DNA from: a virus
Length of the DNA: 64,000 nt
Strand: one strand, 5' to 3'
Virus record (IMG/VR): IMGVR_UViG_3300020178_000825
Location: 1 to 64,000 of that record
Shown here: positions 8,364 to 56,200 of the stretch, piece by piece
Position numbering within the stretch: the first letter of the stretch is position 1
How the letters are laid out: each line of letters opens with the position of its first letter
Program-made: the position numbers and the translations under genes
Notes under the pieces: generated by a model
The model's input: only the letters and a program-made list of their open reading frames with translations
What the model was told of the DNA's origin: nothing
The model's database searches: none

Positions 8364-8372
8364 TATAAATAT
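8364..8372 (-). promoter_or_regulatory. Late-type motif ATATTTATA before the 698-aa gene
   Basis: Sense AATATTTATAT, 21 nt from the ATG at 8343 and immediately after the polymerase stop codon. No TTTG at -33 spacing. Confidence 0.58.
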
Positions 8373-34171: not shown

Positions 34172-34630
34172 CTACTCCGGCTTAGTGGGCCAAGTTATTT
34201 CAAATGGATTTGATTGGGATGTAATATCTCTTAATGATTGTCTGTATGTTTGCCATTCAGTTAATTTAGAACCACTAATTGGAGTATCATTCATTTGTGT
34301 CCAATCACATTCACTTAATAAATTATTTCGTATTTCTCTAATTTCTGTCCACTTTTCTTCTTTTCTTTGTGCAATTTCTTCAACAGATGCCGAAGAAGTT
34401 ATCCAATTCTGAACATAAACAGAACCGCTTTGAATTGGAGTACCTTCAACATAATTTTTTTCATAATCGGAATCAATATCAACAGCCACATATATTATTG
34501 GATATGTGTGAAAAGATGCCAATATATCATTTGTTAAGTTTTTTGGAAAACTAACATTAGTATTATCATTCCTTAAATTATCTAAGGTGTATGGATATGT
34601 TATTTCTGAACCGCTTACTTTTATATACAT
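34172..34630 (-). CDS. Tail fibre assembly chaperone-like protein
   Basis: This 152-aa protein ends with the hallmark of phage tail-fibre assembly proteins: IREIRNNLLSECDWTQMNDTPI, then WQTYRQSLRDI and FEITWPTKPE. Such proteins help fibres fold or attach. The N-terminal half (KVSGSEITYPYTLDNLRND...) is the usual partner-specific region. It lies within the fibre cluster, 12 nt after the LRR gene, and is the last gene of the operon starting at 50212. Confidence 0.82.
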   Translation of the reverse strand: MYIKVSGSEITYPYTLDNLRNDNTNVSFPKNLTNDILASFHTYPIIYVAVDIDSDYEKNYVEGTPIQSGSVYVQNWITSSASVEEIAQRKEEKWTEIREIRNNLLSECDWTQMNDTPISGSKLTEWQTYRQSLRDITSQSNPFEITWPTKPE

Positions 34631-35540: not shown

Positions 35541-38500
35541 TTAACTCATATTTGCTGCACTTAGGAAACCATAATAAGTTGTTCCCGTATCATAAGTATA
35601 GAATACTAAGATATCTTTACCAGATGTTGTTAGCGTTGGTGCGTTACCATTTGCCCACAATACTCCAGTTGGCCAACTTACTGTAAATGCTCCACCATTT
35701 TCTATCACCAATGTGAATCCAAATGCTTTTGGATTTCCTGGTGGGTTTGAGAATGTAAATGTACAGTTATTATTTACTTCATATTCGAAGTTATTTCCTT
35801 GTTCTAAATCGATTGTTACATTGGCACCAGCTCCTAAATCTTTATAAAGTTCAATAAAGATTTTTGATTCAATATAAACTGAACCTGATATTTGTGGTAC
35901 TTCTAATGTAACTCCATCATAAATAAGATTACTCTCAACAGTTGCTTCATTTCCAGTACCATTATAGGTAATTACACCATTTGGTGTTACACCATTTAAC
36001 TCAAGTAATCCAGAAGTACCAGAAGTACCAGCTCCAGAAGTACCCGATGTACCAGCGGTTCCGGTTGCATCAACTCCAGAAGTACCCGATGTACCACCAG
36101 TTCCAGATGAACCTATCGCAGAAGTACCCGATGTACCACTGCTACCAAGTCCAGATGTTCCATCTGAACCACTTACACCCGAAGTACCACCAGTTCCAGT
36201 TGTACCCGATGAACCACTACTTCCGAAGAATGTTCCATTTAATCCACTTGTACCAGAAGAACCAGCAGTTCCAGATGAACCATCAGTACCTGTTGTTCCA
36301 GAAGTTGCCGATGTACCACTACTTCCGAAGAATGTTCCATTTAAACCAGAAGTACCACTTGTTCCAGAAGTACCAGCTGAACCAGTACTACCAGCAGAAC
36401 CATCTGTACCAGCTCCTGATGTACCCGAAGAACCACTACTACCTTCAGCTGATGTACCTGATGTACCATTAGTACCCAATCCAGAAGTACCCGAAGTACC
36501 AGAACCAGATGTTCCTGAAGAACCAGTTATACCAGAAGTACCTGATGAACCTGCCGAACCAAAATTTGTACCATCTAAACCAGAAGAACCAGAAGTTCCA
36601 GATGAACCATCAGTACCTGTTGTTCCAGAAGTACCAGTTACACCAGAAGTACCTGATGAACCAAAGTTAGTTCCATCTAAACCACTTGTACCTGATGTAC
36701 CAGTCGAACCAGAAGTACCAGCCGAACCTGAAGTTCCAGTTGAACCAGAAGTACCTGATGTACCAGCTGAACCAAAGTTAGTTCCATCTAAACCAGAAGA
36801 ACCCGAAGTACCAGTTGTACCACTACTTCCGCTTGTACCAGCACCAGATGTACCAGAAGTACCTGCTGAACCGAAGAAAGTGCCATCTAAACCAGAAGTA
36901 CCCGATGAACCTAAACCACTTGTACCTGATGTACCAGTCGAACCAGAAGAACCTGATGTACCAGTTGTACCACTAGTACCAAAAAATGTACCATCAACAC
37001 CGCTTGTGCCAGCTGTACCATTTATACCATCAAAACCAGAAGTACCAGAAGTACCAGCTCCAGAAGTACCAGAAGTACCCCCAGTACCTGTTGTTCCACT
37101 ACTACCAAAGAAAGTACCATCTAATCCAGAAGTACCAGCAGTTCCAGTTGAACCGCTTGTTCCATTGATTCCAGATGTTCCAGATGTCCCAGCACCACTT
37201 GTACCAGAAGAACCTGAAGTACCTTCAGCTGATGTACCCGATGAACCTGTACTACCAGAAGTTCCAGTTAAACCAGATGTTCCTGATGAACCAGATGAGC
37301 CAGATGTTGCTGAAGTTCCGCTTGTTCCACTACTACCAAAGAAAGTACCATCTAAACCACTCGTTCCAGAAGAACCTGATGTACCCGCTGAACCATCAGT
37401 ACCAGCTCCTGATGTACCAGCTGAACCGCCCGTACCACTTGTTCCACTACTACCAAAGAATGTTCCATCTAAACCACTCGTTCCAGATGTTCCAGAAGTT
37501 GATGAAGAACCTGATGTACCAGCACTACCACTTGTTCCATTGATTCCAGATGTTCCAGATGTACCACTACTTCCTTCAGCTGATGTACCAGAAGAACCAC
37601 CACTACCAGCAGTTCCAGTTGAACCAGAAGTTCCATCCGTACCTGAAGTTCCACTTGTTCCATTTGTACCAGATGTACCCGCTGAACCTGAAGTCCCCTC
37701 AGCTGATGTACCTGATGTACCACCCGTTCCAGTTGAACCTGCTGAACCCGAAGTTCCAGAAGTTCCTCCACTACCTGTTGTACCACTTGTTCCGCCAGTT
37801 CCAGTTGTACCACTTGTTCCACTACTACCTTCAGCTGATGTACCTGATGTACCTCCACTACCAGCAGTTCCAGTTGAACCAGCTGAACCAGCTGAACCTG
37901 ATGAGCCAGATGTACCACTTGTTCCAGAAGTTCCTGAAGTTGCGCTTGTTCCAGAAGTTCCAGCTGAACCTGTTGTTCCTCCACTACCAGACGTACCCGC
38001 AGTTCCGGTTGTACCCGATGTTCCATCGGAGCCGGAAGTTCCACTACTTCCATCAGTACCAGATGTTCCACTACTTCCACTCTCACCAGATGAACCTGAT
38101 GTACCCGATGAACCAGCTGAACCTGTTGTTCCAGAAGTTCCCGATGTACCATCAGTACCAGAAGTACCTGATGTTCCATTTGTTCCTGAAGTTCCAGATG
38201 TACCAGCAGAACCAGTTGAACCTGAAGTTCCACTACTACCACTTGTACCAGCAGTTCCATCTAAGCCACTCGTTCCAGATGTACCATCAGAACCAGAAGT
38301 ACCACTTGTTCCAGAAGTACCAGCTGAACCAGTACTACCAGCAGAACCTGTTGTACCAGCTGAACCAGTAGAACCAGACGTACCAGCTGAACCCGAAGTT
38401 CCTTGCTCACCAGATGTACCACTTGAACCACTTGTACCAGCAGAACCGCTTGTACCTTGTGCCCCACTTGTACCACTACTACCGCTTGTTCCAGATGAAC

Positions 38501-41500
38501 CCGATGAACCAGCAGAACCAGCAGAACCTGTCGAACCATCACTACCAGATGTTCCACTTGTACCACTTGTACCGCTTGTTCCAGAAGTTGCTGAAGTTCC
38601 ACTACTTCCGCTTGTACCAGAAGTTGAAGAAGAACCAGAAGTACCAGCAGTGCCTGATGTGCCCGAAGTTCCACTTGTTCCTTCAGAACCAGTTGTACCA
38701 CTTGAACCCGTTGAACCCGAAGTTCCAGAAGTTGAAGATGTACCACTACTACCTGATGTTCCATTTGTACCAGAAGAACCCGAAGTTCCATCAGTACCTA
38801 TACCACTTGTACCAGCCGAACCTGTCGAACCACTACTTCCACTACTTCCACTTGAGCCCGATGAACCAGAAGTTCCAGATGTACCCGAAGAACCTGAAGT
38901 TCCCTCTGAACCAGTTGTACCACTTGAACCAGTTGAACCACTACTTCCACTACTACCCGATGTACCAGCAGAACCAGAAGTACCTGATGTACCAGCTGAG
39001 CCGGATGTACCACTTGTTCCAGAAGTTCCAGCTGAACCAGAAGAACCAGATGTACCCCCACTACCAGTTGAACCATCGGTACCTGAAGTTCCAGAAGTAC
39101 CACTTGAACCAGAAGAGCCCGAAGTACCTGTTGAACCAGTTGTACCCGATGAACCAGCTGAACCAGTAGAACCCGCTGAACCAGTAGAACCATCAGTACC
39201 AGATGTTCCCGATGTACCACGTGTTCCACTACTACCCGATGTACCAAATGAACCAGTTGTACCTGATGAACCAGTTGTTCCAGCAGTACCAGATGTACCA
39301 GCAGACCCGGTCGAACCATCAGTACCAGAAGTACCTGATGTTCCTGATGTTCCGCTTGTTCCAGAAGTACCAGAAGTTGCCGATGTACCAGAAGAACCAT
39401 TTTTATCTACTATCTCAATAGTACCAATCATTGATGAATGAATAGCACATTGATAAACTATACTATCAGGTGCATTTTCAGGTACTCTATATTTTATTAA
39501 TACATTTGTACTATGATTTCCGTTTGTTGGGTCATTGTTTGTAGTACCCGGAACTGCTGATGTATTACCATCTGCCAATCTCAATGCGAATGGATGCGAT
39601 GAACTTACATTACTTACATCAAAGTAGAATAATTCCCCTCTTACCACTGTTAGGGTTGGGAAATCTCCAGAAGTACCATCTATATTATATACAAACCCAT
39701 TACTTCTAACCACAAACATTCCACCACCTTCGATACCAGATGTTCCACTTGAACCACTACTTCCACTTGTCCCAGAAGTACCCGATGTTCCAGCAGTACC
39801 AGTTGAACCAGAAGTACCACTACTTCCACTTGTCCCAGAAGTTCCAGAAGAACCAGATGTCCCCGCTGAACCAGTTGTACCACTACTACCAGTAGTACCA
39901 CTACTTCCACTTGAACCAGATGAACCCGAAGTTCCAGAAGAACCAGAAGTACCATCTGAACCTGAGGTTCCAGAAGAACCAGATGTCCCCGCTGAACCAG
40001 TTGTACCAGAAGAACCAGTTGTACCAGAACTACCTGAAGTTCCATCAGTACCTGATGTTCCAGAAGTACCATCTATACCAGATGTACCAGAAGAACCAGT
40101 TGTACCTGATGAACCAGTTGTTCCAGCAGTACCAGATGTACCAGCAGTACCTGTTGTACCAGAAGTACCAGCTACTTCAGCTATACTCTTAGTTTGTAAT
40201 TTTTTATTAGTTGTATCATAGATTACTAAATCATTGGAACTACCAGTTTCTAAATCTAAGAATACACTACCAGTTACAACTAAACTTCCAGTTACATTTA
40301 AACTACCACTTAATTCAGCTTTTCCTGAGAATGGGAATCCATCACCAGTAGAGTTACTTAATACTTCTACCAATACTCCATCTGAACCAGAAGGTGTTAC
40401 ACTAACACCAGAACCAGTAAAGTTCATATTTCCTACTAATCCATTTACTACTGAACCAGTTTCAAATATGTATAAATCAGTTCCACCACCACCAGCACCA
40501 GCATTTAATGCGTATGAAGCGGTTACTGCAAATAATGAATATGATGATGTAGCCACACTCATTGAAGAGGTTTGGCTATTTTGTATGTATTCACTTAAAT
40601 CAACACTAACTTCAGCATTTTCAGCGTAAGATGCTGTAATTGCGAATGAAGAAGAAAGAACGGTCATTGATGCCGTTTGTTCGTTTCTTACAAAGTTTTC
40701 TAAATCTTGTAGTGCTGCTAATGATGCTGAATCTAATCCAGCTACCGAAGATGCAGTTCCAGCAGTTTCAGCGAATATAGCATATGATGCTGAACTAACT
40801 GTTCCTATTACATTATCACCACTTATTGCTCCACTAATTTTAGAACCACCACTACCAACAACGATTTGTCCACTTGTTAATCCACTAAACTTAACTTTAA
40901 CAGTATTATTATCAATAGATTCAATAGCTAAAGGAATAATCATTCCATTTGAACCAGTTTCATAAACCTGTACTATTGGATATGCTACATCAAAGTTATG
41001 AACAATAGTTACTTCAGTAGCATTTGAGAATGGTTCGGTTGTAGTTGGAGTAGATTCAGGTACAGGTACAAATTTGTTTGATGCCGCATCAAATATTAGA
41101 ATTTCTCTATCTTCAGCATCACCCTCACCTCTATATGCTCCCTCAAATGAACCAGAAAGTAAACCACCTCTAAATACACTTGCGGTAATATCGTTTGCAG
41201 TAATATCGTTTACTGTAATATCATTTTGAACTGTCAAATCACCCTCAATAGATGCCGAAGTGTTTACTACGAAACCTTGAACAGGTGATACAGATGCCGT
41301 TACCGAACCAGAAGTAATTCTAGTTTGGTCTAAATCAAAGATTGCATCCGCTGGAATATCAAATAGATTTCTACCACTACCACTAAATGATGAACCACTA
41401 ATTAGTGAGATTGCCCCACTTACGAATAATGAACCAGTTAATTGTGAACCACTCTCAGGTGCAAATACTACAAATCCGTTGTTATCACTTACTTGTGCGA

Positions 41501-44500
41501 ATGTTGAACCAGAAGTAATTAAATCTAATTCTAAATCTGTCAACGATTCCGCTGGGATATTGAATAATCCACCACCATCACCTCTGAATAGAGATGCCGA
41601 TAATGGAACATTTACAGTTAATTGATTTGGGTCAATCACAGCTTCACCAGAACCAGATTTGATTCTATCCAATTCTAAGTCTTGAAGTGCTTCCGCTGGA
41701 ATGTTAAATAATCCACCACCATCACCTACAAATAGAGATGCTGATATTGATTCTGATATAAATACCGAACCACTAAATTCTGATTTTACAGATGATGTAG
41801 AGAATACTCTAAAGAACCCACTTTCATCAATAGATGCAGTTACAGAACCCGTAGCAATTCTATCAGCATCAAATGCTAAGTTAGCGATTGAAATATTTGT
41901 TAAACCACTACCATCACCACTAATTACACCACCTACATTTAGGGATTGCGATATTTCAACCGAACCACTAAACTCAGATTTAACTCCACCAAACGGGTCC
42001 TCAACAATGAATCTACCATCTTCATTTGTAGATGCAGTTACCGAACCAGTTACGATTTGTGCTACATCAAATGCTAAGTTAGCAAGTGAGATATTTGTAA
42101 GACCGGAACCATCACCAGTATAGATACCACCAATTTCTATTGATTCAGAAACAAATAACGAACCACTAAGTTCGGTTCTAACAGAACCAGTAGATTCTAC
42201 TACAAATTTACCATCGTTAGATACCGATGCCGTTACTGAACCGGTTACTAATCTATTTACATCAAATGATAAGTTTGCTAATGAAATGTTGGTTAATTGA
42301 GAACCATCACCAGCAAATGAACCAGAGAATGAACCACTAAGTTCTAAATTTTCTCTTGTATTTTCCCATCTTTGAGAACCACTATTCCAAACTAATAAAT
42401 CACCATCATCGGATTTAATTGAACCACTATCAACCAATATAGCATCAGATGTAGTAATTTGTACATCATGTAAATCATATAAGTGGTCTCCCAAATGAGG
42501 TCTTACCAATAATGTTACATTGTTACCATTCTTAGCAGTAACTACAGCGATAGATGATTTTAAGTTTGGAGCTTCAGGTTGAACATTTGTTAAACCACCT
42601 GGTCTTTGAGGGTCTCCATAAAGAATATCACCCTCTGCCCAAACTGAACCACTATCTTTTAAAGAACCCGATTCTAATGCGTTTATCTGAACTCCTCTTA
42701 CATATCCAAACCAAGTTACAAATCCTTCTTGATTATTATCGATAGGTTCGGTAAGAATACCAACTAATAAATCCTCAGCGTAAGTTCCATCGGTTACTGA
42801 TTTTATTACTCTAATTCTATTACCTTGTGCTGGTTGAGCTGGGTCAACCATTACTAAAGTACCATTGATTAGATTATTACCATCTTTGTTTACAACAGGC
42901 GGATAATATAATTCTTGTCCTAATTGAAGTGTAGCTTCATTGCCCTTCATTCCTAAATCAAGAGTACCATCGGTTTCGTTCCACTTCAATCTACCAGCTA
43001 CACTCTGAATTCCATTATCAAAATTAATGAAATCTAAATAAGATGCGGTAATTGAAGATGCTGTGATATGATTTGCTACTAATTTTTCAGTAGTTGTTGT
43101 ATCACCAACAATTAAATCGTTTGTTATAGAACCATCATTTGCGATAATAGTTTGTGATACATCTAAATTACCACTAACTTCAGTCTTACCTTCAAATGCA
43201 ATTCTTTCATTTATATTAAGATTATCAGCAACTCTAATACTACCACTTAATGAAGAAGATTCTTCAGAAATATAGTAAAGTGTACCAGGAGCTGATTGAG
43301 GAACTGTAAATACGATTGAACCACTATCCTCACCATTATTGGTTACACCAGTTGAGAATAAATCACCACTACCAGTTGTATTGTTTGTTTTTAAGTAGAA
43401 GTTGTAATTTGGTGTATTTACATTGAATGTGTATTCAATACCTCTTACCAGCGTTAAAGTTGGTTCTTCTACACTATCCACCAAGTATGATGAACTATCA
43501 GCGTTAAATGTTATATAGAATGATTGAGATACAGCCTCTACTTCAGTAATTGATGATGAAATCACCAATCCACCAGTTACGAAAGTATCACCAATAACTT
43601 TTAAGTTACCTTCAATTGATGCTGATGAGTTTACTTCAAATCCATTATTTGGTGAAACCGATGCGGTTACTGAACCACTTGCGATAAATGAACGAGGAAG
43701 TACATCCTCAGCAAGTGCTGAAAGTGGAATATTAAATAAATCTCTACCACTTCCACTAAATGAACCACTAAAGTCTCCTAAGAATTTACTAGCACTTACC
43801 TCATTAGCTGTTATAGTGTTGGATACATCTAAATTACCAGTTACAAATGTACTACCTGTTATATTTAGATTACCAACTACCTCAGTATCACCAATTAAAT
43901 CAATTTGTCCGTATAGTGGTATTTCATCAACTATATTGAATTCACCAGCCATTGCAAGGTGATTTTCACAATTATAATAAAGTGTATTTGGAGCGGAACC
44001 AGAAACTATCCAAGTTATAGTACCATTTTCAGTACCATTATTTGTTATTACACTACCACTATATTCAAATTCAGTTCCATCGGAATTTTGAGTTTTTATA
44101 TAGAATGGATGTGAAGGTGCATTTACATTGAATGTATAAGTTAATCCTCTTACAATTGTAATTGTTGGGTTATCACCAACTACACCACCACTAAATCTAT
44201 ATGCGGATGAACCCTCATTGATAACATTAAATGTTGTATTTATTGAACCAGTATCAACAAATCCGTTTGATGATGATACTATGAAACTACCTGTTATTCT
44301 TACATCATCCTCTAAGTTAGTTGTTGTATTGACTACAAACCCTAAGTTGGGTGAAATGGATGCAGTAGCAGAACCACTAGCTATTCTCTTAGCTTCCTCA
44401 GCGAACTCAGCCGCAGGTAAGTTGGTTAATTGAGAACCATCACCCACAAAGAATGATGCCGATACCGTACCTTCACTTGCAGTAATATCAGTACCAACTT

Positions 44501-47500
44501 TAAATCCTTCATTTACATCTAAACTTCCACTAATTTTAACTGAACCCGTAAATTCAGAACCACTTTCAGTAGATTCTACAAAGAATCCTCTTTCAGGTGT
44601 TACTGAAGCAGAAACGCTACCACTAGCAATTCTAAATGCTTCTTCAGTAAGTGCCGATTGTGGAATGTTGAATAAACCACTACCATCACCAGTTATAACA
44701 CCATCTACATCTAATGAATTAGTTACAAATACTGAACCTGTAAATTCTTGTCTATTATCTAAACTATTTCCAAATGTATTTGAACCAGAAGATGTAATTA
44801 CAACCGAATCTATAAATGTTACATTTAACTCTCTAGCATTTATAGCCCCACTTACATATAAATCATTATCAATTGTTAAATCACCTTGAATCGAACCAGA
44901 AGTATTAACTACAAATCCTAAATTAGGTGATACAGACGCAGTTACAGAACCACTAGCAATTCTTGGAGAATCTTCTGCTAATGCCGATTGAGGAATATTA
45001 AATAATCCAGCACCATCACCTTTAAAAATACCATCGTTTATTTGAACATTTCCACTTACGAAAAGTGAACCAGTGAATAATGAACCACTATCTAAAGATT
45101 CTACAACAAATCCTCTATCTGGGTCAGTTGATGCGGTTACCGAACCACTACCGATTCTAGGTGCATCCCCACTAAGAGATGTAAATGGAATATTATTAAG
45201 TTGTGAACCATCACCAGCAAATGAACCAGAAAATGAACCAGTAAATTCTTCTGAAGTGATAATCGTAGCATCTAACTCATCTACATTAATCTTACTAGCA
45301 GTTAAATCATTTGAAATTACTACAGAACCAGTTATATCAATACTACTTGTAAATTGAGAACCACTACCAGCATTTACGATAAAGAACTCTCCACTTTCAA
45401 CCGATGCCGTAGCAGAACCACTAGCAATTACAGGAGATTCTTCAGCTTGTACATTTGTTAATTGAGAACCATCACCAATGAAAAATTTAGAAGTAATTGA
45501 TTCTGAAACAAATACAGAACCACTAAATTCTGATTTGGTAGTTCCAGTAGAATCTTCTACTCTAAATATGTTACTACCAGATTCAGGCGGTACTACTATC
45601 ACCGATGCAGTAATAGAACCACTTGTAATATTATTTGTAAGTAATGCATCTTCAGTTAATGCTGAACGAGGAATATCAAATAAATCTCTACCACTACCAC
45701 TAAATGCGCCACTAACTTCATTACCAATGAATCTATCAGCGGTTACATCATCAGTAACTTCAACATCTTTAGCAAATATCGTAGTTGATGCAGAAATACT
45801 ACTATCAAATGTTGCTGGTACATTTACTTGGAATCCTAAGTTAGGTGAAATCGATGCGGTTGCCGAACCAGATGCTATTCTTGGTGAATCACCAGAAAGT
45901 TGTGCGGCCGGAATATTAAATAAACCACTACCATCACCCTGAAATAGTGATGCGGTTACTGATTCTGAAATAAATAATGACCCACTAATTCTAGTAGTAT
46001 CACCCAATTCTATAAGTGATACTTCAGCTTGACCTGGAGTTTGTTCTGCTTTTACAAATAATCCACCAGTGATTGTTGTGAATGTATTTACATTCATTCC
46101 ACCATTTGGATTAAGAGAAGCAGTAATTGAACCAGTTGCTATTAAATTTGATAATAATGCATCTGGTGCTAATGCTGAACGAGGAATATCAAATAAACCT
46201 TCACCACTACCACTAAACATAGATGCGGATAAACTACCACTTACTCCAAGAGAACCACTTAATTCAGTTCGTATTTCTTTTCTAGTTGTATCTTCTACTC
46301 TAAAAAGACTTGGTTCATCTGAACCTGATTTGTATAATAATGAAGCCGATACTGAACCACTAGCAATTCTAAATGCTTCTTCTGATAATGCGTTTAATGG
46401 TATATTGAATAATCTACTACCATCACCTTCAAATGATGAACTTATAATTCCACTTGCGGTTACATTACCAACAATCTCAGTTTCACCAATTAATGTTTGT
46501 TTATCTTCAGCTGAATCACCAAATATATTTGAACCAGATGAATAAACAATCGATGATGAAATAAAGTTTGTATATAATTCGTTTGTTGTAATTCTACCCG
46601 TTACAACCAAATCACTATCTATTCTAACATCTTGCTCAAATAATGAAGATGTATTAACTACAAATCCTAAGTTTGGAGAAACGGATGCAGTTGCTGAACC
46701 ACTTGCAATTCTAAATGCTTCTTCAGTTAATGCTGATTGTGGAATATCAAATAATCCAGCACCACTACCACTAAACATAGATGCTGATACTGGGAATTCA
46801 AATTTTGAGAATGTATTAACTACAAATCCTTCATTTGGTGAAATTGATGCAGTTGCAGAACCACTACTAATTTTATTAATATCAAATGCTAAAGCTGATT
46901 CCGGTATATCAGTTAACCCAGCACCACTACCACTAAATACCGATGCAGAAACTCCACTTTCTACAAACACCGAAGAACTAAATTCTGCTCTATTAGTACC
47001 TTCTAATCTAAATCCAAATACTGGGGATACTGATGCCGTTACCGAACCACTAGCTATAAATGATGAAAGTAATGCATCTTCTGTTAGTGCACTTCTTGGT
47101 ATATCAAATAAATCCCTACCACTACCACTAAATACTGAACCTGAAGATAGTTTTACATCACCGAAGAATGTTGAACCACTTTCTATCGAAGTTACTACAA
47201 ATCCATCTTCTGGGTTTGTAGATGCGGTAATTGAACCACTAAATATTAATGAAGTATCTAAATCTACAATAGCAGCTACTGGAATATCAAATAGTTTAGC
47301 ACCACTACCACTATATGATGAACCGCTTTCTACTCTAACCTCTCCAAAGAATGTTGAACCACTAGCGATTGAAGTTACAACAAAACCATCTTCAGCATCA
47401 ACGGATGCGGTTACTGAACCAGAAGTAATTTTACTTATTTCAAAAGAAAGTGCTGATTCTGGAATATCGAATAAGTTAGCACCACTACCACTAAACGAAC

Positions 47501-49313
47501 CACTAATTTCCTTTGCTTCAATTGATTCAGATACAAATAATGAAGAACTAAATTCTGCTCTATCTGCTCCAAAGAATTTAAAACCATCCTCTGGGTCAAC
47601 TGATGCTGTTGCTGAACCACTAGCAATTCTTGGTGAATCACCAGCTAAGTTAGATATCGGAATATTAAATAATCCACTACCATCACCAGTGTATATTCCA
47701 TCTTCTAATGTAACTCCACCACTTACAAATAAAGAACCTGTAAATTGTGAACCACTTGCTTCAGATATTACTATAAAACCATTTTGTTCATCAACTGAGG
47801 CTGTTACATTACCATCTTGTATTTTTGTTGCAGCTACAACCTCTTCAGCTAATGCAGATAATGGAATATCAAATAAACCAGCACCACTACCAGAAAAGAA
47901 CGAACCAGAAATACCACCACTTACAAAAAGTGAACCACTTAATTCAGTTTTTACCGAACCAGTTGATTCCACTTTAAAGAATCCTTGAGGTGAAACAGAT
48001 GCGGTTACAGAACCAGATGTAATTTGATTTGTTACTAATGCATCTTCAGTAAGAGCAGAACGAGGTATATCAAATAAATCAGCACCACTACCAGAATATG
48101 TTTCTCCATCGGATAATGTAATACTACCACTAATTCTAATTGAACCCGTGATTTGAGAACCACTTTCTAATGATTCTACTTTAAATCCTTCATCGGGTGA
48201 AACCGATGCGGTTACACTACCACTTTCTAAAGATGTTGCTATTAATGTTTCTGTTGATAATGCAGATAATGGAATATCGAATAAATTAGCACCACTACCA
48301 GAATAAGATTCACCATCTGCTAAGGTTATACTACCACTAACTTTAATTGAACCAGTTATCTGAGAACCACTTTCTAATGATTCTACTTTAAATCCTTCAT
48401 CGGGTGAAACAGATGCGGTTACACTACCACTTGTTATTTTATTTGTTACTAATGCATCTTCAGTAAGAGCAGAACGAGGTATATCAAATAATCCAGCACC
48501 ACTACCACTAAAGATAGATGCAGATACTGAACTACTTACAAATACAGAACCACTAAATTCTGCTTTAACATCACCTTCAGTATCTTCTAATATAAATCCT
48601 CTTTGTGGGTCAACCGAAGCGGTTACTGAACCTGAAGTAATTTTATTGGTTACTAATGCATCTTCTGTAAGTGCTGAACGAGGAATGTTAGTTAATCCCT
48701 CACCACTACCACTAAAGAATCCCGCGCTATCAAATGGTATTTCAACAACACCATCGGTAGTTAGTGAACCAGTTATTTCAACCGAACCTGTAAATTCTTG
48801 TCTATCGGTTAGTTCATCACCAAATTTATTTGAACCAGATGAGAAAAATATAGATGAAGAAATAAATTCAACTAAAATTTCTCTTGCTACAATTTTATTA
48901 TCAACAACTAAATCACCAGTAAATCTACCATTACCATCAACAGTCAATCCACCATCAAATGAACCAGATGTGTTAACTAAGAATCCAGTTTGTGGAGAAA
49001 TTGATGCCGATGCAGAACCTGATATTAATCTACTAGCATCTTCTACTAAGGGTAAATTTGTTAATTGTGAACCATCACCTTGAAATGAACCACTAAATGA
49101 ACCACTAAACTCTTCTAATTGAATTTTAGTAACAAATAGTCTATTACCAGCATCATCCGATGCAACTAATGCAAAAGAACCAGAACTAATACTACCACTT
49201 TCAGGAACCCCCAAATTAGGCTCGGCTTCTGAAAGGGATAAATACTGATACCTATCCAGCGATACGTCCTGCGGACGAGTTACTTTTACTTTACCACTTA
49301 GTAATTGACCCAT
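35541..49313 (-). CDS. Giant tail fibre (4590 aa) with fibre modules, cupredoxin domains and Gly-X-Y shafts
   Basis: Residues 1-2600 are built from about 28 modules, each with GSG.GLFDIPRSAL or GDGSGLFNIP, then SGSVTASVSP..GF.V and a beta stretch. Two cupredoxin-like domains interrupt this region (about residues 1700-1800 and 1920-2040). A carrier-like domain (DPAQPAQGNRIRVIKS, then VWAEGDILYGDPQRPGG) lies near residues 2140-2280. Near residue 2770 is the beta domain YPIVQVYETGSNGMIIP. Residues about 3050-3195 and 3305-4435 are Gly-X-Y shafts separated by a third cupredoxin-like domain with complete ligands (His3240, Cys3289, His3292, Met3295). The last 150 residues (FTLVIENGGAFTVSWPTG, then GTTYYGFLSAANMS) form a probable receptor-binding tip. 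Co-transcribed with the 287-aa gene upstream. Confidence 0.9.
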   Translation of the reverse strand: MGQLLSGKVKVTRPQDVSLDRYQYLSLSEAEPNLGVPESGSISSGSFALVASDDAGNRLFVTKIQLEEFSGSFSGSFQGDGSQLTNLPLVEDASRLISGSASASISPQTGFLVNTSGSFDGGLTVDGNGRFTGDLVVDNKIVAREILVEFISSSIFFSSGSNKFGDELTDRQEFTGSVEITGSLTTDGVVEIPFDSAGFFSGSGEGLTNIPRSALTEDALVTNKITSGSVTASVDPQRGFILEDTEGDVKAEFSGSVFVSSSVSASIFSGSGAGLFDIPRSALTEDALVTNKITSGSVTASVSPDEGFKVESLESGSQITGSIKVSGSITLADGESYSGSGANLFDIPLSALSTETLIATSLESGSVTASVSPDEGFKVESLESGSQITGSIRISGSITLSDGETYSGSGADLFDIPRSALTEDALVTNQITSGSVTASVSPQGFFKVESTGSVKTELSGSLFVSGGISGSFFSGSGAGLFDIPLSALAEEVVAATKIQDGNVTASVDEQNGFIVISEASGSQFTGSLFVSGGVTLEDGIYTGDGSGLFNIPISNLAGDSPRIASGSATASVDPEDGFKFFGADRAEFSSSLFVSESIEAKEISGSFSGSGANLFDIPESALSFEISKITSGSVTASVDAEDGFVVTSIASGSTFFGEVRVESGSSYSGSGAKLFDIPVAAIVDLDTSLIFSGSITASTNPEDGFVVTSIESGSTFFGDVKLSSGSVFSGSGRDLFDIPRSALTEDALLSSFIASGSVTASVSPVFGFRLEGTNRAEFSSSVFVESGVSASVFSGSGAGLTDIPESALAFDINKISSGSATASISPNEGFVVNTFSKFEFPVSASMFSGSGAGLFDIPQSALTEEAFRIASGSATASVSPNLGFVVNTSSLFEQDVRIDSDLVVTGRITTNELYTNFISSSIVYSSGSNIFGDSAEDKQTLIGETEIVGNVTASGIISSSFEGDGSRLFNIPLNALSEEAFRIASGSVSASLLYKSGSDEPSLFRVEDTTRKEIRTELSGSLGVSGSLSASMFSGSGEGLFDIPRSALAPDALLSNLIATGSITASLNPNGGMNVNTFTTITGGLFVKAEQTPGQAEVSLIELGDTTRISGSLFISESVTASLFQGDGSGLFNIPAAQLSGDSPRIASGSATASISPNLGFQVNVPATFDSSISASTTIFAKDVEVTDDVTADRFIGNEVSGAFSGSGRDLFDIPRSALTEDALLTNNITSGSITASVIVVPPESGSNIFRVEDSTGTTKSEFSGSVFVSESITSKFFIGDGSQLTNVQAEESPVIASGSATASVESGEFFIVNAGSGSQFTSSIDITGSVVISNDLTASKINVDELDATIITSEEFTGSFSGSFAGDGSQLNNIPFTSLSGDAPRIGSGSVTASTDPDRGFVVESLDSGSLFTGSLFVSGNVQINDGIFKGDGAGLFNIPQSALAEDSPRIASGSVTASVSPNLGFVVNTSGSIQGDLTIDNDLYVSGAINARELNVTFIDSVVITSSGSNTFGNSLDNRQEFTGSVFVTNSLDVDGVITGDGSGLFNIPQSALTEEAFRIASGSVSASVTPERGFFVESTESGSEFTGSVKISGSLDVNEGFKVGTDITASEGTVSASFFVGDGSQLTNLPAAEFAEEAKRIASGSATASISPNLGFVVNTTTNLEDDVRITGSFIVSSSNGFVDTGSINTTFNVINEGSSAYRFSGGVVGDNPTITIVRGLTYTFNVNAPSHPFYIKTQNSDGTEFEYSGSVITNNGTENGTITWIVSGSAPNTLYYNCENHLAMAGEFNIVDEIPLYGQIDLIGDTEVVGNLNITGSTFVTGNLDVSNTITANEVSASKFLGDFSGSFSGSGRDLFNIPLSALAEDVLPRSFIASGSVTASVSPNNGFEVNSSASIEGNLKVIGDTFVTGGLVISSSITEVEAVSQSFYITFNADSSSYLVDSVEEPTLTLVRGIEYTFNVNTPNYNFYLKTNNTTGSGDLFSTGVTNNGEDSGSIVFTVPQSAPGTLYYISEESSSLSGSIRVADNLNINERIAFEGKTEVSGNLDVSQTIIANDGSITNDLIVGDTTTTEKLVANHITASSITASYLDFINFDNGIQSVAGRLKWNETDGTLDLGMKGNEATLQLGQELYYPPVVNKDGNNLINGTLVMVDPAQPAQGNRIRVIKSVTDGTYAEDLLVGILTEPIDNNQEGFVTWFGYVRGVQINALESGSLKDSGSVWAEGDILYGDPQRPGGLTNVQPEAPNLKSSIAVVTAKNGNNVTLLVRPHLGDHLYDLHDVQITTSDAILVDSGSIKSDDGDLLVWNSGSQRWENTRENLELSGSFSGSFAGDGSQLTNISLANLSFDVNRLVTGSVTASVSNDGKFVVESTGSVRTELSGSLFVSESIEIGGIYTGDGSGLTNISLANLAFDVAQIVTGSVTASTNEDGRFIVEDPFGGVKSEFSGSVEISQSLNVGGVISGDGSGLTNISIANLAFDADRIATGSVTASIDESGFFRVFSTSSVKSEFSGSVFISESISASLFVGDGGGLFNIPAEALQDLELDRIKSGSGEAVIDPNQLTVNVPLSASLFRGDGGGLFNIPAESLTDLELDLITSGSTFAQVSDNNGFVVFAPESGSQLTGSLFVSGAISLISGSSFSGSGRNLFDIPADAIFDLDQTRITSGSVTASVSPVQGFVVNTSASIEGDLTVQNDITVNDITANDITASVFRGGLLSGSFEGAYRGEGDAEDREILIFDAASNKFVPVPESTPTTTEPFSNATEVTIVHNFDVAYPIVQVYETGSNGMIIPLAIESIDNNTVKVKFSGLTSGQIVVGSGGSKISGAISGDNVIGTVSSASYAIFAETAGTASSVAGLDSASLAALQDLENFVRNEQTASMTVLSSSFAITASYAENAEVSVDLSEYIQNSQTSSMSVATSSYSLFAVTASYALNAGAGGGGTDLYIFETGSVVNGLVGNMNFTGSGVSVTPSGSDGVLVEVLSNSTGDGFPFSGKAELSGSLNVTGSLVVTGSVFLDLETGSSNDLVIYDTTNKKLQTKSIAEVAGTSGTTGTAGTSGTAGTTGSSGTTGSSGTSGIDGTSGTSGTDGTSGSSGTTGSSGTTGSAGTSGSSGTSGSDGTSGSSGTSGSSGSSGSSGTTGSSGTTGSAGTSGSSGTSGTSGSSGTSGSTGTAGTSGTSGTSGSSGSSGTSGIEGGGMFVVRSNGFVYNIDGTSGDFPTLTVVRGELFYFDVSNVSSSHPFALRLADGNTSAVPGTTNNDPTNGNHSTNVLIKYRVPENAPDSIVYQCAIHSSMIGTIEIVDKNGSSGTSATSGTSGTSGTSGTSGTSGTDGSTGSAGTSGTAGTTGSSGTTGSFGTSGSSGTRGTSGTSGTDGSTGSAGSTGSAGSSGTTGSTGTSGSSGSSGTSGTSGTDGSTGSGGTSGSSGSAGTSGTSGTSGSAGTSGTSGSAGTSGSSGSSGSTGSSGTTGSEGTSGSSGTSGTSGSSGSSGSSGSSGSTGSAGTSGIGTDGTSGSSGTNGTSGSSGTSSTSGTSGSTGSSGTTGSEGTSGTSGTSGTAGTSGSSSTSGTSGSSGTSATSGTSGTSGTSGTSGSDGSTGSAGSAGSSGSSGTSGSSGTSGAQGTSGSAGTSGSSGTSGEQGTSGSAGTSGSTGSAGTTGSAGSTGSAGTSGTSGTSGSDGTSGTSGLDGTAGTSGSSGTSGSTGSAGTSGTSGTNGTSGTSGTDGTSGTSGTTGSAGSSGTSGSSGESGSSGTSGTDGSSGTSGSDGTSGTTGTAGTSGSGGTTGSAGTSGTSATSGTSGTSGTSGSSGSAGSAGSTGTAGSGGTSGTSAEGSSGTSGTTGTGGTSGTTGSGGTSGTSGSAGSTGTGGTSGTSAEGTSGSAGTSGTNGTSGTSGTDGTSGSTGTAGSGGSSGTSAEGSSGTSGTSGINGTSGSAGTSGSSSTSGTSGTSGLDGTFFGSSGTSGTGGSAGTSGAGTDGSAGTSGSSGTSGLDGTFFGSSGTSGTSATSGSSGSSGTSGLTGTSGSTGSSGTSAEGTSGSSGTSGAGTSGTSGINGTSGSTGTAGTSGLDGTFFGSSGTTGTGGTSGTSGAGTSGTSGFDGINGTAGTSGVDGTFFGTSGTTGTSGSSGSTGTSGTSGLGSSGTSGLDGTFFGSAGTSGTSGAGTSGSSGTTGTSGSSGLDGTNFGSAGTSGTSGSTGTSGSAGTSGSTGTSGTSGLDGTNFGSSGTSGVTGTSGTTGTDGSSGTSGSSGLDGTNFGSAGSSGTSGITGSSGTSGSGTSGTSGLGTNGTSGTSAEGSSGSSGTSGAGTDGSAGSTGSAGTSGTSGTSGLNGTFFGSSGTSATSGTTGTDGSSGTAGSSGTSGLNGTFFGSSGSSGTTGTGGTSGVSGSDGTSGLGSSGTSGTSAIGSSGTGGTSGTSGVDATGTAGTSGTSGAGTSGTSGLLELNGVTPNGVITYNGTGNEATVESNLIYDGVTLEVPQISGSVYIESKIFIELYKDLGAGANVTIDLEQGNNFEYEVNNNCTFTFSNPPGNPKAFGFTLVIENGGAFTVSWPTGVLWANGNAPTLTTSGKDILVFYTYDTGTTYYGFLSAANMS
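36010..39400 (-). repeat. Long proline-free Gly-X-Y array of the 4590-aa fibre
   Basis: About 1130 residues of Gly-X-Y with X/Y mostly Ser, Thr and Ala and scattered Asp/Asn/Glu. About ten copies of G[LV][DN]GT[FN]FG[ST] interrupt the triplet register. Codon usage in the repeat makes both strands look open. Confidence 0.9.
39405..39725 (-). other. Cupredoxin-like domain with full copper ligand set (second intact copy)
   Basis: Residues about 3197-3304 of the 4590-aa fibre: FPTLTVVRGELFYFDVSN, SHPFALRL (His3240), VPENAPDSIVYQCAIHSSMIG (Cys3289, His3292, Met3295; first 20 residues shown in part). The His-to-Cys distance is 49 and the C-x2-H-x2-M spacing equals that of amicyanin. Confidence 0.75.
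39735..40170 (-). repeat. Short Gly-X-Y array of the 4590-aa fibre
   Basis: About 145 residues of Gly-X-Y (GTSGTTGTAGTSG type), separated from the long array by the cupredoxin-like domain at 39405-39725. Confidence 0.88.
43195..43560 (-). other. Cupredoxin-like domain without copper ligands
   Basis: In the 4590-aa fibre: PTLTLVRGIEYTFNVNTP, NYNFYLKT (His replaced by Asn), then APGTLYYISEESSSLSG (no Cys/His/Met). The scaffold residues match the intact copies, so the fold is kept and the metal site lost. Confidence 0.65.
43905..44225 (-). other. Cupredoxin-like domain with full copper ligand set (first intact copy)
   Basis: Residues about 1697-1803 of the 4590-aa fibre: PTITIVRGLTYTFNVN, SHPFYIKT (His1735), YYNCENHLAMAG (Cys1782, His1785, Met1788). 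The His-Cys gap of 47 equals that of plastocyanin, and C-x2-H-x2-M equals amicyanin. Confidence 0.78.
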
Positions 49314-50234: not shown

Positions 50235-53200
50235 TTACCCTTCCAGAGCGAGAGAGAATGGTGTAACTAATGAGAATAATGAACGAGAGAATGTTCTACC
50301 CTGTAATGTACCAGTTGCCTGATTAATTACAAGTCCCGTACCAATCTTAAAGTCACCAAGTTCGTTACCCGCAGTGAAGAATACTCTACCTCCACCCAAT
50401 TCAACAATTTCTTTATCTGGGTCTGGAACTCCATTACCACCTTGGTTAGGAGGTAATGCTTTATAAGTTACACCAGAACCAGCATATGAGAAATCATGTC
50501 CAGTAGTAATAATTAGTGAACCAAATAATTCCAATGGTGCATTTCTAGCAACTTTTTGGAATAAAGTTCTTAAATATCTATTTGTTTCTGCCGTTTCTTT
50601 CTTTTGTTCGTTTATCACTACACTAGCATCACCATAAACACCATTGTAGTAAGATTTTGCAGCTTCAATACTTCTCTCATTACCACCATATAGTAAATCA
50701 GTTGAAATAGCATCTAAAATAAATCCAGTATCTCTATAACATTTTTCTTCGTTATATTCAAAACCTGGGAATGCTGCTTCAGTATATGAAATTGCCGATG
50801 ATTGTAAATATTTCTTCGCTGCTCTTAATTCATTGTAACCATTTCTTCTATTCAAACTAGCGAATGTTAATTGGTCTTGCTTAATAACTTTTTCAGCCAT
50901 TCCTTTTGCGAAATCAATACCATCGATTGTTTGGGGTTTTTGTTCAGTAATTGCTACTGAAGGAATATAGTAATAGAATGTAGCCGCTTGGATACTTCTT
51001 TCGTTACCACCATATACCAAATCAGTTCTAACCGCATCTATGATGTAACCCAAATCTCTACTACAACTTACATCATTGTAAGCGAACTCACTCCAAGATG
51101 AAGATAAAAATGCGATAGTTTCTTTTTGAATAAATGTTTTGTTATTCACCAATAAATCAGCCGCAACTAATACCGATGCTGATGGTTCGTTCCATTCAAT
51201 ATTTTGAATCACATTTTGAGCCAATCCACTAGCATATTTGATACCAGTAGTTGTTGGGTCTAATTGAGATACCACCGAAGGTACACCTCTTTCAGTTGCC
51301 GATGATGGGTATTTGAAGTAGTAATTACCAGCGATAACACTTCTTTCGTTACCACCATACAATAAATCGGTTGCTGCTGCATCTACTATGAATCCAGTAT
51401 CTCTTCTACATTTAGCTTCATCATAGTAAACACCACTCCAAGAAGAAGATACATACTGAATTGTTTCTTCAGCGATAAATGGTTTGTTCTTTCTCAACAA
51501 GTCAAACGATGCGGATACTTCGGTAGATGCTGTTACGAATTGGATATTTTGAACCAATGCTTCAGAGATTCTACCAGCGTATTTCACACCATCAGTTGTT
51601 TGATTTGCTTGAACTGAAGTTGCTTCCGATGGATATAAGTAGTAGTATTCACCAGCGGTTCTACTTCTTTCATTTCCACCATATAAGAAATCAGTTGCAA
51701 CTGCATCCACAATATATCCAACATCTCTAGCACACTTATCTTTGTTGTACTCAAATGTACTCCAACTAGCAGTTAAGTAAGCCAATGATTCTGATTGAAT
51801 GAATGTTCTATTGTTTAGTAACGATTCGTTACCAGCAATTCTTTCAGCTGATGGAGATTGGAATATTTGGTTTACAATTACTTTTTCCATCATATCACCC
51901 GCGTACTCAATTCCAGTTACCGTTGGGTCTAATTGAGCGTTAGTTGCTGATGATGGATATTTGTAATAGTAATTTCCAGCTATTACACTTCTCTCAGTTC
52001 CACCATAAAGAATATCAGTTGAAATAGCATCTAAGATGTATCCAATATCTCTCTTACAAGTTTCTTGGTTGTAATCAAACTCACTCCAAGAAGATGATAA
52101 GTAAGCGATTGATTCACTTTGAATGAATCCTTTGTTATCTCTTAATAAATCATAAGATTGTTGAGAAGCTGATGATGGTGATACTAATTGAATATTACTA
52201 GCAACTTTCTCAGCCAATCTACCAGCGTATCTGATTCCATCCAATGTTTGGTCTAATTGAGAACCAGTTGCTTGTGATGGATATAAGTAGTAGAAGTTTC
52301 CTGCTTTGTTAGTTCTTTCGTTACCACCATATACAATATCAGTTCTTACAGCATCAATAATGTATCCAACATCTCTCTTACAAGTTACTTCATCATAATC
52401 AAAAGTTGACCAAGATGAAGATAAGTAAGCGATTGTTTCAGTCTGAATGAATGGTGTGTTCAATCTCAACAATTCAGATGTTACAACTCTTTCAGAAGAT
52501 GCAGTTACAAATTCAATATTTTGAATAAGTTTTTGTGCCAATCTACTTGCGTAATTGATACCATCTAAAGTTTGATTTAATTGAGCTCCTTGCGCTTGGG
52601 ATGGGTATTCATAGTAGAATTTACCATTTACAATAGATGCGGAATTAGCGTTCCAAATTAAATCTTCAGCTGCTCCACTAATAATCAACTTAATATCTCT
52701 AGCACATTTAGCTTCATCATAAGATGCCGTACTCCAAGAAGATGATAAGTAAGCTATTGATTCCGATTGAATGAATGAAATATTACTTCTTAGGATTTGG
52801 TAAGCTGCGATTGTACTTTCATCAGTTGATGGAGTTGTATAAGTTCCAAACAATGGAAGTGAACCAGTTCCATTAGAAATAATATCAGTTACAATCTCAA
52901 CCGATTCTGAAATAAATGAAATATTTTCTAATGAACCACTAGCTGATGAAGAAATGTATTGAGTAACATTTGTTACTTTAATGTTCTCATTTAAGTTTTC
53001 AACTAATGTTGGGATAACACTCACACCATCTTCAACAATACCACTAACTGATGCGAATGAAGAACTAATCTTAGTTAATTCAACTTCACCAGCAGAAGAT
53101 GCTGAAATGTATTGAGGTGTTGATGTTACTTTAATATTATTGTTAGTATTCAAACTAGCTGATGGAATTGGTAAAGTATTCTTATCAATCAATTCAGTTA

Positions 53201-56200
53201 CCAACTTAGATGCGTAAATTACTGCATCAGTAGTTTCACCCAATTGTGCGGTTGTTGCTTGTGATGGGAATTTATAGTAGTACTGTCCAGCTACGATTGA
53301 GCGTTGGTTACCACCCCATCTTAAATCAGTTGCTACCGCATCTACGATGAATCCAGCATCTCTACTACAACTAGCTTCGTTGTATTCTAAGTTTGGATAT
53401 TTAGCGTTTACAAATGCAACAGTTTCCGCTTGGATAAATTCTCTATTTTCTCTAATTGAATCGTAAACGAATTCAACTTCGTTTGAAGCAGTTACAAACT
53501 GAGAACCACTTAGTAACTCATTTGCCAATGATTTAGCGTAATTGATACCAGTTACAGTTGGGTCTTTTTGTTGGTCTACATTTGGTACACCACCCACAAT
53601 CGCTGCTGATGGATATCTATAATAGTAATCTCCAGCAATAACACTTCTTTCATTACCACCATATTTCAAATCAGTTGCTACTGCATCTATAATATACCCA
53701 ACATCTCTCTTACACTTAGATTCGGAGTAATAGAAATCACTCCAAGAAGAAGATAAGTAAGCGATAGTTTCGTTTTGGATAAATTCTTTGTTTTCAACCA
53801 ATAAGTTGTAAGATGCCGAAACTGATGATGATGCGGTTACGAATGTTCTATTTCTTACAATGTGTTGAGTTAGAGTACTAGCATAATTGATACCATCTAA
53901 TGTTTGTTGTAATTGAGAACCAGTTGCGGCAGATGGATATTCTAAGTAGAACTTACCATTTACCACCGATGCGGAATTTGAGTTCCAAATTAAATCTTCC
54001 GCTGCACCACTCACAATCAATGCAACATCTCTACTACAACTTGCTTCGTTGTATGAGAAATCACTCCAAGAAGATGAAATGTAAGCGATTGATTCAGATA
54101 CAATAAATGGTAGGTTATTCTTAATTAACTGATAAGCCAATTTAGCTTTTGGAGAATCAGATGGAGTTGTGTACTCAATAATCGTAGGTGCCGAACCACT
54201 TCCATTCTCAATAATATCAGTTACAATAGCGATTGATGAAGATACAATCTTAGATTGTAGTTTATCAGCTGATGATGCTGAAATATATTGTGGAGTATCC
54301 GTTACCTTAATTAGGTTATCAACATCGGTATTATTTCTTACGATAGTTGGTTTTTGAGATAATCCATTTTCAACAATGTCCACCACAATTCCAAATCTAT
54401 TATCAACAATTGAAAGTTCAGCCGTTGATGCAGATACAGAAGATGAATATTGAGTTGTGTTTGTAAACTTACGTTTGTTGTAAGTATTATCAACAAAATC
54501 AGCAATAGATGATGTTGTATTTTCAATAATATCATTAATTAATGAGAATGAACTACTTACGATTGCTAATTCAGTATCAGTTGTATAAGTTCCAGTTGGA
54601 GTTACAACATATCCAGATTCACCTGCTATTGTTGGGTCACCCAAATCACCATCTTGGAATATACTTCTAATAGTTGCCAATGATGGTTTACTAATTGTAG
54701 GTGAAATATATGTGTTATGGAATGCATAACCTAATGGGTTATTTGCTAAAATTCCAGCTTGTGTTCTCATTGAATCATCCCACTCAGGAGAAAGACTTCC
54801 ATTTTCCCATAAATCGGTATATTCAAACATTGAGAAGTTTAACAAATATAGATATTCTTTAGCAGCTACCTCAAATGCATCAGAATCAGTTTTCCAACTA
54901 TTACCACCATATCCCGATGAATCCCACAATCCAGCATCATATGCCTCTTCCATTGCAAGATATAAATCACCAGTCTGCCAATCAGATGCCAAATAAGAAT
55001 ATAGTTTTATATCATCTGCAGGTAAACCATGCATATGTAATGTGTGGAATATGTGTTCAATTACTTCTTGTGCATCTATATCACCAGAACCAGATATATC
55101 ACCTGTTGAGTTTAGATACCAAACCATATCGTTTTGTACATGAGTATCAAACAAGTTTGTTAAGTTCCAATATAAAATACCAGCATCATCAAGGAAGTTT
55201 GGAGTATAATCACTTCCAGCTCCTCTTGCTACTCTTTGTATAGTTGGTAATCCAGCGTGGTAAGTTCCACTATCACCACTTAATGTTTTAATTAAATTTC
55301 TTTGGAATGTTTCATTTATTCCCGAACCACTTGGGTCAGTAAATAATTCAAACATACGAGCAACTTTCTCAGTAAATGCATCAGGTACAGCAGTTTGTCC
55401 ACCAACATCACCGGCTACAACAATTCTTACACCATTGACTGTAACTTCTTTTTTGAAGAAATCACTACCATCACCAGTTAAAGATATAATTGAACCATTG
55501 TTGTATTCTGAATCTAATGTAGGTCCAGCTATTTGAGTATAAGAACCCGTTGTTAATTGTTGTGGAGTATCTAACTCAGAAGTTTGGAAATGCTTAGCGA
55601 TAGTAAATGGAATATCATCAGAACCTAATCTAATAATATCGTTAATCATATCAATACTTGCCGATACAATTCCAATTTGTGTTCCTTTGTTTTGAGATGC
55701 AACCTCAGTTAATCTTTGTGCGTACTCAATACCAGCAACAGTTTCTTCTAATTGATATCCAGTTGCTTGTGATGGATATTTGTAATAGTAATTTCCTGAT
55801 TTAACGCTTCTTTCATTACCACCATATAGTAAGTCAGTTGCTACACCATCAATGATGTAACCCACATCTCTACTACACTTACTTTCATTGTATTGGTGAG
55901 TTGGGAATGAGGATGATAAGTATGCAATTACCTTAGATTGGATAGTTGCTTTTTCATTTACAATTGAGTTATAAGAATCAACAATAGTAGAATCTGCCGA
56001 TGAGAATGTTACATTCTGAATCAATTTCTGAGCTAAATTACTAGCGTAGAAAATACCATCTAATGTTTGGTCTAATTGTGAGCTTGTTGCCTGAGATGGG
56101 TATTCTAAATAGAACTTACCATTTACAATTGAAGATGAATCAGTATTCCAAATTAAATCTTCAGCTGCCCCACTTACAATCAATCCAACATCTCTTCTAC

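Follow-up and report, generated by a model that had tools for sequence, protein, structure and literature searches.

Can the tail fiber of a virus carry a copper site of the type found in plastocyanin? The question is raised by a stretch of 64,000 nucleotides from an uncultured phage (positions 1 to 64,000 of IMG/VR virus record IMGVR_UViG_3300020178_000825, which comprises 126,056 bases), referred to here as the window. An initial annotation, made from the letters alone, had placed at positions 43905-44225 a type-1 copper site with amicyanin spacing, inside a phage tail fiber.

A giant tail fiber with two complete ligand sets

The fiber gene is an open reading frame on the minus strand (35541-49313) that encodes a protein of 4590 residues, with PHROG tail fiber families among its matches (best 1.5e-102). 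The second open reading frame after it (34172-34630, minus strand) resembles tail fiber assembly proteins (PHROG 4912, 1.1e-22). A tail sheath is encoded at 18817-21126 on the same strand (PHROG 23, 1.4e-73; the closest sheath among named phages, that of Microcystis phage Mel-JY01, shows 46% identity), and a baseplate hub-like gene was recognized by PHROG profile match further along from the fiber. The presence of both points to a contractile tail. Elsewhere in the window, an open reading frame of 427 residues (8372-9655, minus strand) has only a partial DNA polymerase PHROG match (1.3e-13, positions 957-1223 of 1445).

Translation of the fiber gene returned the four proposed ligands exactly where they had been located: His1735, with its codon at 44109-44111, and the loop C1782-E-N-H1785-L-A-M1788 at 43950-43970, in which C1782 is encoded by 43968-43970, H1785 by 43959-43961 and M1788 by 43950-43952 (all minus strand). 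The surrounding domain, denoted here as D1, is real as well, but its range had been drawn slightly too narrow, since it spans about 43920-44246 (minus strand, fiber residues 1690-1798). It had also been called a first copy, and indeed a search of the record with the domain D3 as query yielded four copies, two intact (D1 and D3) and two ligand-less (D2 and D4). D3, whose fold is assigned by homology, lies at 39399-39725 on the minus strand (fiber residues 3197-3305) and contributes H3240, C3289, H3292 and M3295. D2 (43221-43538, minus strand, fiber residues 1926-2031) has all four ligand positions replaced. D4 (58977-59291, minus strand, fold by homology) belongs to the neighboring giant open reading frame (50235-63998, minus strand). 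The latter comprises 4835 codons in the full record, and contains 24 copies of a SWSxFxYNExKCxRDxGYIIDAVA-like motif, many of them exactly 108 residues apart.

The order His...Cys-x(n)-His-x(n)-Met that characterizes type-1 sites is present in both D1 and D3, with placement at the strand ends checked for D1. The whole fiber contains 3 Cys, 10 His and 14 Met, and two of those three Cys are ligands within a C-x2-H-x2-M motif; around 2e-5 such motifs would be expected by chance, two are observed, and none of 20,000 shuffled fiber sequences contained any. The loop had been described as amicyanin-like, which is correct for the loop alone, as amicyanin shares it with D1 and D3. The distance from the first His to the Cys, 47 residues in D1 and 49 in D3, had been likened to both plastocyanin and amicyanin; the D1 value agrees with plastocyanin, where H37 and C84 are 47 residues apart, but not with amicyanin, for which a hand count on the aligned chain gave 39 (H53/C92). 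Amicyanins proper combine that gap of 39 with an Asn after the first His, whereas D1 and D3 have a Pro at this position and longer gaps, and therefore fall outside that family.

Predicted fold of the domains

The AlphaFold2 model of D1, obtained from an alignment with 21 other domains, has nine strands, a pLDDT of 92.6 and a pTM of 0.85. When it was compared with the PDB using Foldseek, the best matches were copper proteins (E 5e-5), and the nine chains found at E<=0.001 all belonged to copper proteins (nitrite reductase, rusticyanin, AcoP and laccase), in a list that is impure, with an aspartic peptidase occupying 5 of 50 rows (best E 1.7e-3). Alignment with VIA-align, in which rows less than 1 Z apart count as tied, gave Z values of 10.4-11.0 for three-domain nitrite reductase over 97-98 residues at 2.5-2.9 Å (the best being Z 11.0 at 97 residues and 2.5 Å), 9.0-10.2 for rusticyanin (94 residues, 2.1-2.3 Å), and near 9 for multicopper oxidases and laccases. 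Structure prediction followed by comparison with known proteins had been put forward as the check on the proposed site, and its outcome, with cupredoxins ranking best and the strand order of the ligands fitting, agrees with the proposal as far as fold and strand order go. Amicyanin, plastocyanin, rusticyanin and the cupredoxin domain of nitrite reductase (PDB 2DV6) have in common with D1 both the fold and the ligand order H...C..H..M. Among the predicted viral proteins of BFVD, the top D1 matches were cyanophage virion proteins or unnamed proteins, with TM up to 0.84. Further matches of this model there include small "beta-sandwich proteins" from relatives of Pithovirus and Marseillevirus, with E values of about 1e-7 to 1e-6.

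In the model, His1735 is found in a loop with strands 39-45 and 51-54 on either side, the Cys closes the next-to-last strand (91-96), and the Met stands just before the last one (103-109). Cupredoxins place their Cys, Met and first His in the same manner relative to the strands, and, as far as the order of the strands goes, the modeled arrangement agrees with a cupredoxin site. The AlphaFold2 model of D2 (pLDDT 89.2) scored Z 11.4 against the nitrite reductase matched by D1, and both domains are predicted to be cupredoxin folds, that is, Greek-key beta-sandwiches of 7-9 strands. Because the ligand-less D2 has the same predicted fold, the copper site would be dispensable for folding, which weakens the suggestion that copper might serve for stability. 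It also lends weight, together with the existence of the ligand-less relative D4, to a rival explanation: that the knob is free of metal, fibers having adopted the fold as a robust beta-sandwich, with Cys, His and Met retained so that the loops pack. The behavior of the ligands across relatives, described below, makes this rather unlikely in our judgment.

Sequence relation to cupredoxins

D1 alone matched no NCBIfam model at a limit of 0.1 and no cupredoxin in Pfam, where its sole match was a sub-threshold plant family, and a phmmer search of the PDB with D3 retrieved no cupredoxin, but two matches at chance level (0.46 and 0.65). A profile built from 22 domains of the window and of viral contigs (A1), in contrast, reached in the PDB a nitrite reductase (entry 2VMJ, 3.4e-5), another nitrite reductase (6.5e-4) and plastocyanin (0.0038), followed more weakly by amicyanins (from 0.049) and by rusticyanin, pseudoazurin and azurin, although this list, taken as the best 60 of 83 sequences, is also impure, containing a xylanase at 0.13 and an antibody chain at 0.22. 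When the members were compared individually with NCBIfam at the limit of 0.1, in a scan that did not show curated cut-offs, plastocyanin was reached by 6 of the 22 (best 9e-5), amicyanin by 5 (best 7.1e-7) and rusticyanin by 2 (best 1.6e-4). At the same limit, Pfam Copper-bind was reached by 7 of the 22 (best 3e-4), in a scan where unrelated families got to 0.003-0.004. In one relative aligned to amicyanin, the C-x2-H-x2-M motifs of both proteins coincide; its first His falls on the ligand His of plastocyanin 1B3I, and next to that ligand when the partner is amicyanin or 2PLT. At the sequence level, a relation to cupredoxins is detectable through the relatives and the profile, and not from D1 or D3 alone.

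These relatives bear on the nature of the metal. Copper might be replaced in the virion by another metal, most likely zinc acting as a structural ion, given that the Cys-His2-Met sites of recombinant cupredoxins take zinc too, and that fibers are produced in the cytosol, a compartment with more available zinc than copper. However, copper outcompetes zinc at such sites, following the Irving-Williams order, and the relatives that score best by sequence are copper proteins, so that we regard a zinc site as quite unlikely. The same relatives raise the idea of a redox domain, in which copper would shuttle electrons or sense the redox state at the host surface, as plastocyanin, amicyanin and rusticyanin, all among the nearest ones, are electron carriers. 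Yet some 1500 residues separate the two intact sites, site-less copies are retained, and the whole fiber matches in PHROG tail families and families without function (a result for PHROG that leaves room for a redox partner), all of which renders this role highly improbable.

Conservation and loss of the ligands

The collected relatives comprised 267 loci, which gave 188 unique domains of at least 70 residues and, at 85% identity, 137 clusters. The complete four-ligand set was present in 116 of these 137 clusters, and the 121 clusters with the first His had counts of H 121, C 120, H 117 and M 117, figures inflated by the fact that several search patterns held ligands. The ligands constitute four of the five best-conserved columns among the 121, the other high columns being a Tyr two residues before the Cys (119), a Pro after the first His (116, as in D1 and D3, whereas the amicyanin and plastocyanin chains aligned here have Asn) and a Phe (114). 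Five exceptions were noted in this set: one cluster without the Met, one reduced to the first His and the Met by loss of the Cys and the second His, and three with a longer loop. In L214, L216 and L218 the first His and the Cys are followed by a longer loop ending like (N)EHI(D/N)EGGF(D/N)NRE, without C-x2-H-x2-M, perhaps an altered site. Where the first His is missing (15 clusters), the second is absent throughout and the Cys from 13, and the Met is retained in 9. Departures from the ligand set are thus not always all-or-none.

A tree was built with the ligand columns masked from 133 clusters, the remaining 4 of the 137 being left out because a ligand column fell in a gap (three of them, L214, L216 and L218, are real exceptions). 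It contains one clade of 15 in which His, Cys and His are lost together and, separately, L047, which is devoid of the Cys and the second His. Shared-loss branches numbered one, against a null mean of 0.013 and a null maximum of 1. Two apparent Cys gains inside the degenerate clade more likely represent residues retained, or reverted, under relaxed constraint. Joint loss was rejected as a strong statistical argument, since the tree holds only about two loss events. The pattern itself speaks for what would be a joint constraint on the ligands.

A control for retrieval bias used D2 as query and took the best 80 of its 261 relatives which, minus the two copies of the window itself, left 78; one of the six patterns spans the first-His position, with a degenerate letter. 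From 109 unique matches, 50 were dropped for gaps at ligand columns, and the 59 complete unique domains divided into 26 with all four ligands and 33 with neither His (the latter keeping the Cys in 2 cases and the Met in 16). A ligand-less cupredoxin-like subfamily (L106-L183, with the pattern Y...S-x2-Q-x2-M/L) occurs on many viral contigs near residues 208-316 of the open frame, and is followed by an apparent partial repeat.

A metal-free knob would be compatible with the altered ligand loop of a few members, and with the Pro that takes the place of the usual residue after the first His. What argues against it is the standing of the ligands among the best-kept columns of the 121 clusters and the fact that loss of the first His is accompanied by loss of the second in every case and of the Cys in nearly all; such joint loss, even if it amounts to about two events, is not predicted by packing alone.

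A putative copper-binding knob on the fiber

The notion that a phage fiber contains a cupredoxin fold bearing all the type-1 ligands is therefore supported by the model, the sequence profile and the conservation of the ligands. In the reading that we favor, to which we assign a probability of roughly 0.6, D1 and D3 would be side knobs of the fiber, each with a complete type-1-type site that most likely binds one copper ion. What the analysis establishes is the sequence, a predicted fold, kinship to cupredoxins and four conserved ligands; metal binding is proposed on top of this. By our own estimate, it is likely that an intact domain, once purified, would hold one copper, and the chances are about even that it does so in the virion; virus particles may, in consequence, carry copper. 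D1 and D3 differ from classical cupredoxins in being parts of a giant virion fiber, in having site-less counterparts, and in that their copper site is predicted.

D3 is flanked by two Gly-X-Y tracts devoid of proline, one of 50 triplets before it (39720-40169, minus strand, residues 3049-3198) and one of 64 triplets after it (38796-39371, minus strand, residues 3315-3506), both matched by the PHROG "collagen like minor tail". The tracts suggest a homotrimeric fiber, which would therefore bear up to six intact sites; since they lack proline, they are not typical collagen and the trimer is less certain. A related virus (L007) provides a view of how the knobs may evolve. Its fiber is 83% identical to that of the window in D1 and 98% in the stretch after it, and 89% identical behind the D2 slot, whereas the slot itself shows 21% identity and is occupied by a cupredoxin-like domain from a different subfamily, with its ligands intact (H-D...C-x2-H-x2-M). 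One slot thus appears to swap whole domains between related viruses, which fits a surface module under selection.

Judging from its position, and hence more tentatively, the knob might serve in adhesion or recognition. The two chain ends of a cupredoxin are remote from its metal site, so that in the knob the site would face outward from the shaft, and the bound metal could preorganize the outward tip. Copper is kept very low in the cytosol, and for this reason it would probably be loaded after lysis. D2 and D4 would be copies that lost the site and persist as metal-free knobs. Our reading is, then, one of an exchangeable fiber knob that is predicted to bind metal in some of its copies. Blue copper sites are known to have a backbone hydrogen bond to the Cys sulfur, which a Pro is unable to give; because of the Pro after the first His, the predicted site may differ in potential, color or affinity.

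Relation to known metal sites in phage fibers

The nearest known idea is that of iron in phage fibers: PMC11705849 describes HxH iron sites, reported or proposed, in the tail fibers of T4 (gp37) and of Alteromonas phage R22Y, and suggests a "Trojan horse" role. Those sites are octahedral and bind iron through pairs of His, whereas D1 and D3 each present a Cys-His2-Met site of blue copper type inside a single domain. As regards copper, the relevant passages of other reports concern different matters: the copper motifs in PMC8115048 belong to a viral NirK, plastocyanin appears in PMC6563490 and PMC10436341 as a gene name in a legend, and the distal fiber is not resolved in PMC10575957. Among the matches listed for titles and abstracts of the open-licence literature, phage virions with a cupredoxin or a copper domain do not figure. 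A functional study, of which the initial annotation knew none, is likewise absent from the matches listed in that literature. Cupredoxins themselves are old; a type-1-type site in a conserved family of virion proteins is what those listed matches lack, and some members may already be annotated as cupredoxin-like in individual genomes. If the main reading is true, the site would be a copper counterpart to the iron-in-tails idea, would tie copper to marine phage adsorption in a way open to testing, and would provide a natural pair of domains, with and without the site, from which the role of the metal could be learned.

Occurrence in marine phages

Similar domains had been surmised to occur in structural proteins of marine phages, and a tblastn search with D1 (E<=0.001) found them in 285 of 50,697 phage records, named Synechococcus (213), Cyanophage (47), Prochlorococcus (19), Marine (5) and Actinomycetia (1), the domain often forming the end of gp9-like baseplate connectors. 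Of the 22 phage loci examined, the D1 search supplied 20 (8 high in the list and 12 of 24 rows spread down the ranking) and a D2 search the other 2. The full ligand set was present in 20 of 20 and 1 of 2, respectively, the exception being S-B05, in which it is lost. Twelve of the 22 were annotated as gp9 or baseplate wedge tail fiber connector; in these the domain is at the C-terminal end, the set is complete in all 12, and 10 of the 12 open frames have 407-420 codons. In two of these 12 (L272 and L273) the next large structural protein carries another C-x2-H-x2-M domain (L272 and L281 each also gave a second-domain match that stops short of the ligand loop and did not enter the count).

This agrees with PHROG 677 (gp9-like baseplate wedge tail fiber protein connector of cyanophages), whose last approximately 106 positions are a D1-type domain (1.8e-22). 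The match of D1 covers only profile positions 306-411 of 412, and that of the record starts at position 244; the fiber of the window, with its 4590 residues and strong matches to tail fiber families, is not a PHROG 677 protein as a whole (about 412 residues). If copper were held, many cultured marine cyanophages would carry a virion metalloprotein currently labeled "baseplate wedge tail fiber connector", "tail fiber" or "hypothetical". A far-reaching extension, unlikely when taken as a whole, would be that genuine blue copper sites are widespread on the fibers and baseplate connectors of tailed phages infecting marine bacteria, that virions load seawater copper after lysis, that the metal-bound tip grips a host surface component, perhaps one that handles copper, and that the particles form an unrecognized pool of strong organic copper ligands.

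A first genome scan for the domain gave 42 candidates, none of them confirmed. A second one, with a query from another subfamily, gave 41 loci on bacterial or archaeal contigs, mostly marine by title; the clusters from these loci were intact in 36 of 36 cases, in a search in which one pattern held a ligand stretch. By eye, L247 and L260 look like phage fibers in single-cell contigs and, since some loci have this appearance, no reading on a cellular function is drawn. Also by eye, a 353-codon open frame of a marine genome contig (L241) is lipoprotein-like; it contains Gly-X-Y tracts and ends in this same domain. In Prochlorococcus phage P-SSM2, a gene annotated as PiuC (L268, 10137-10730) is the third after the domain-bearing fiber gene.
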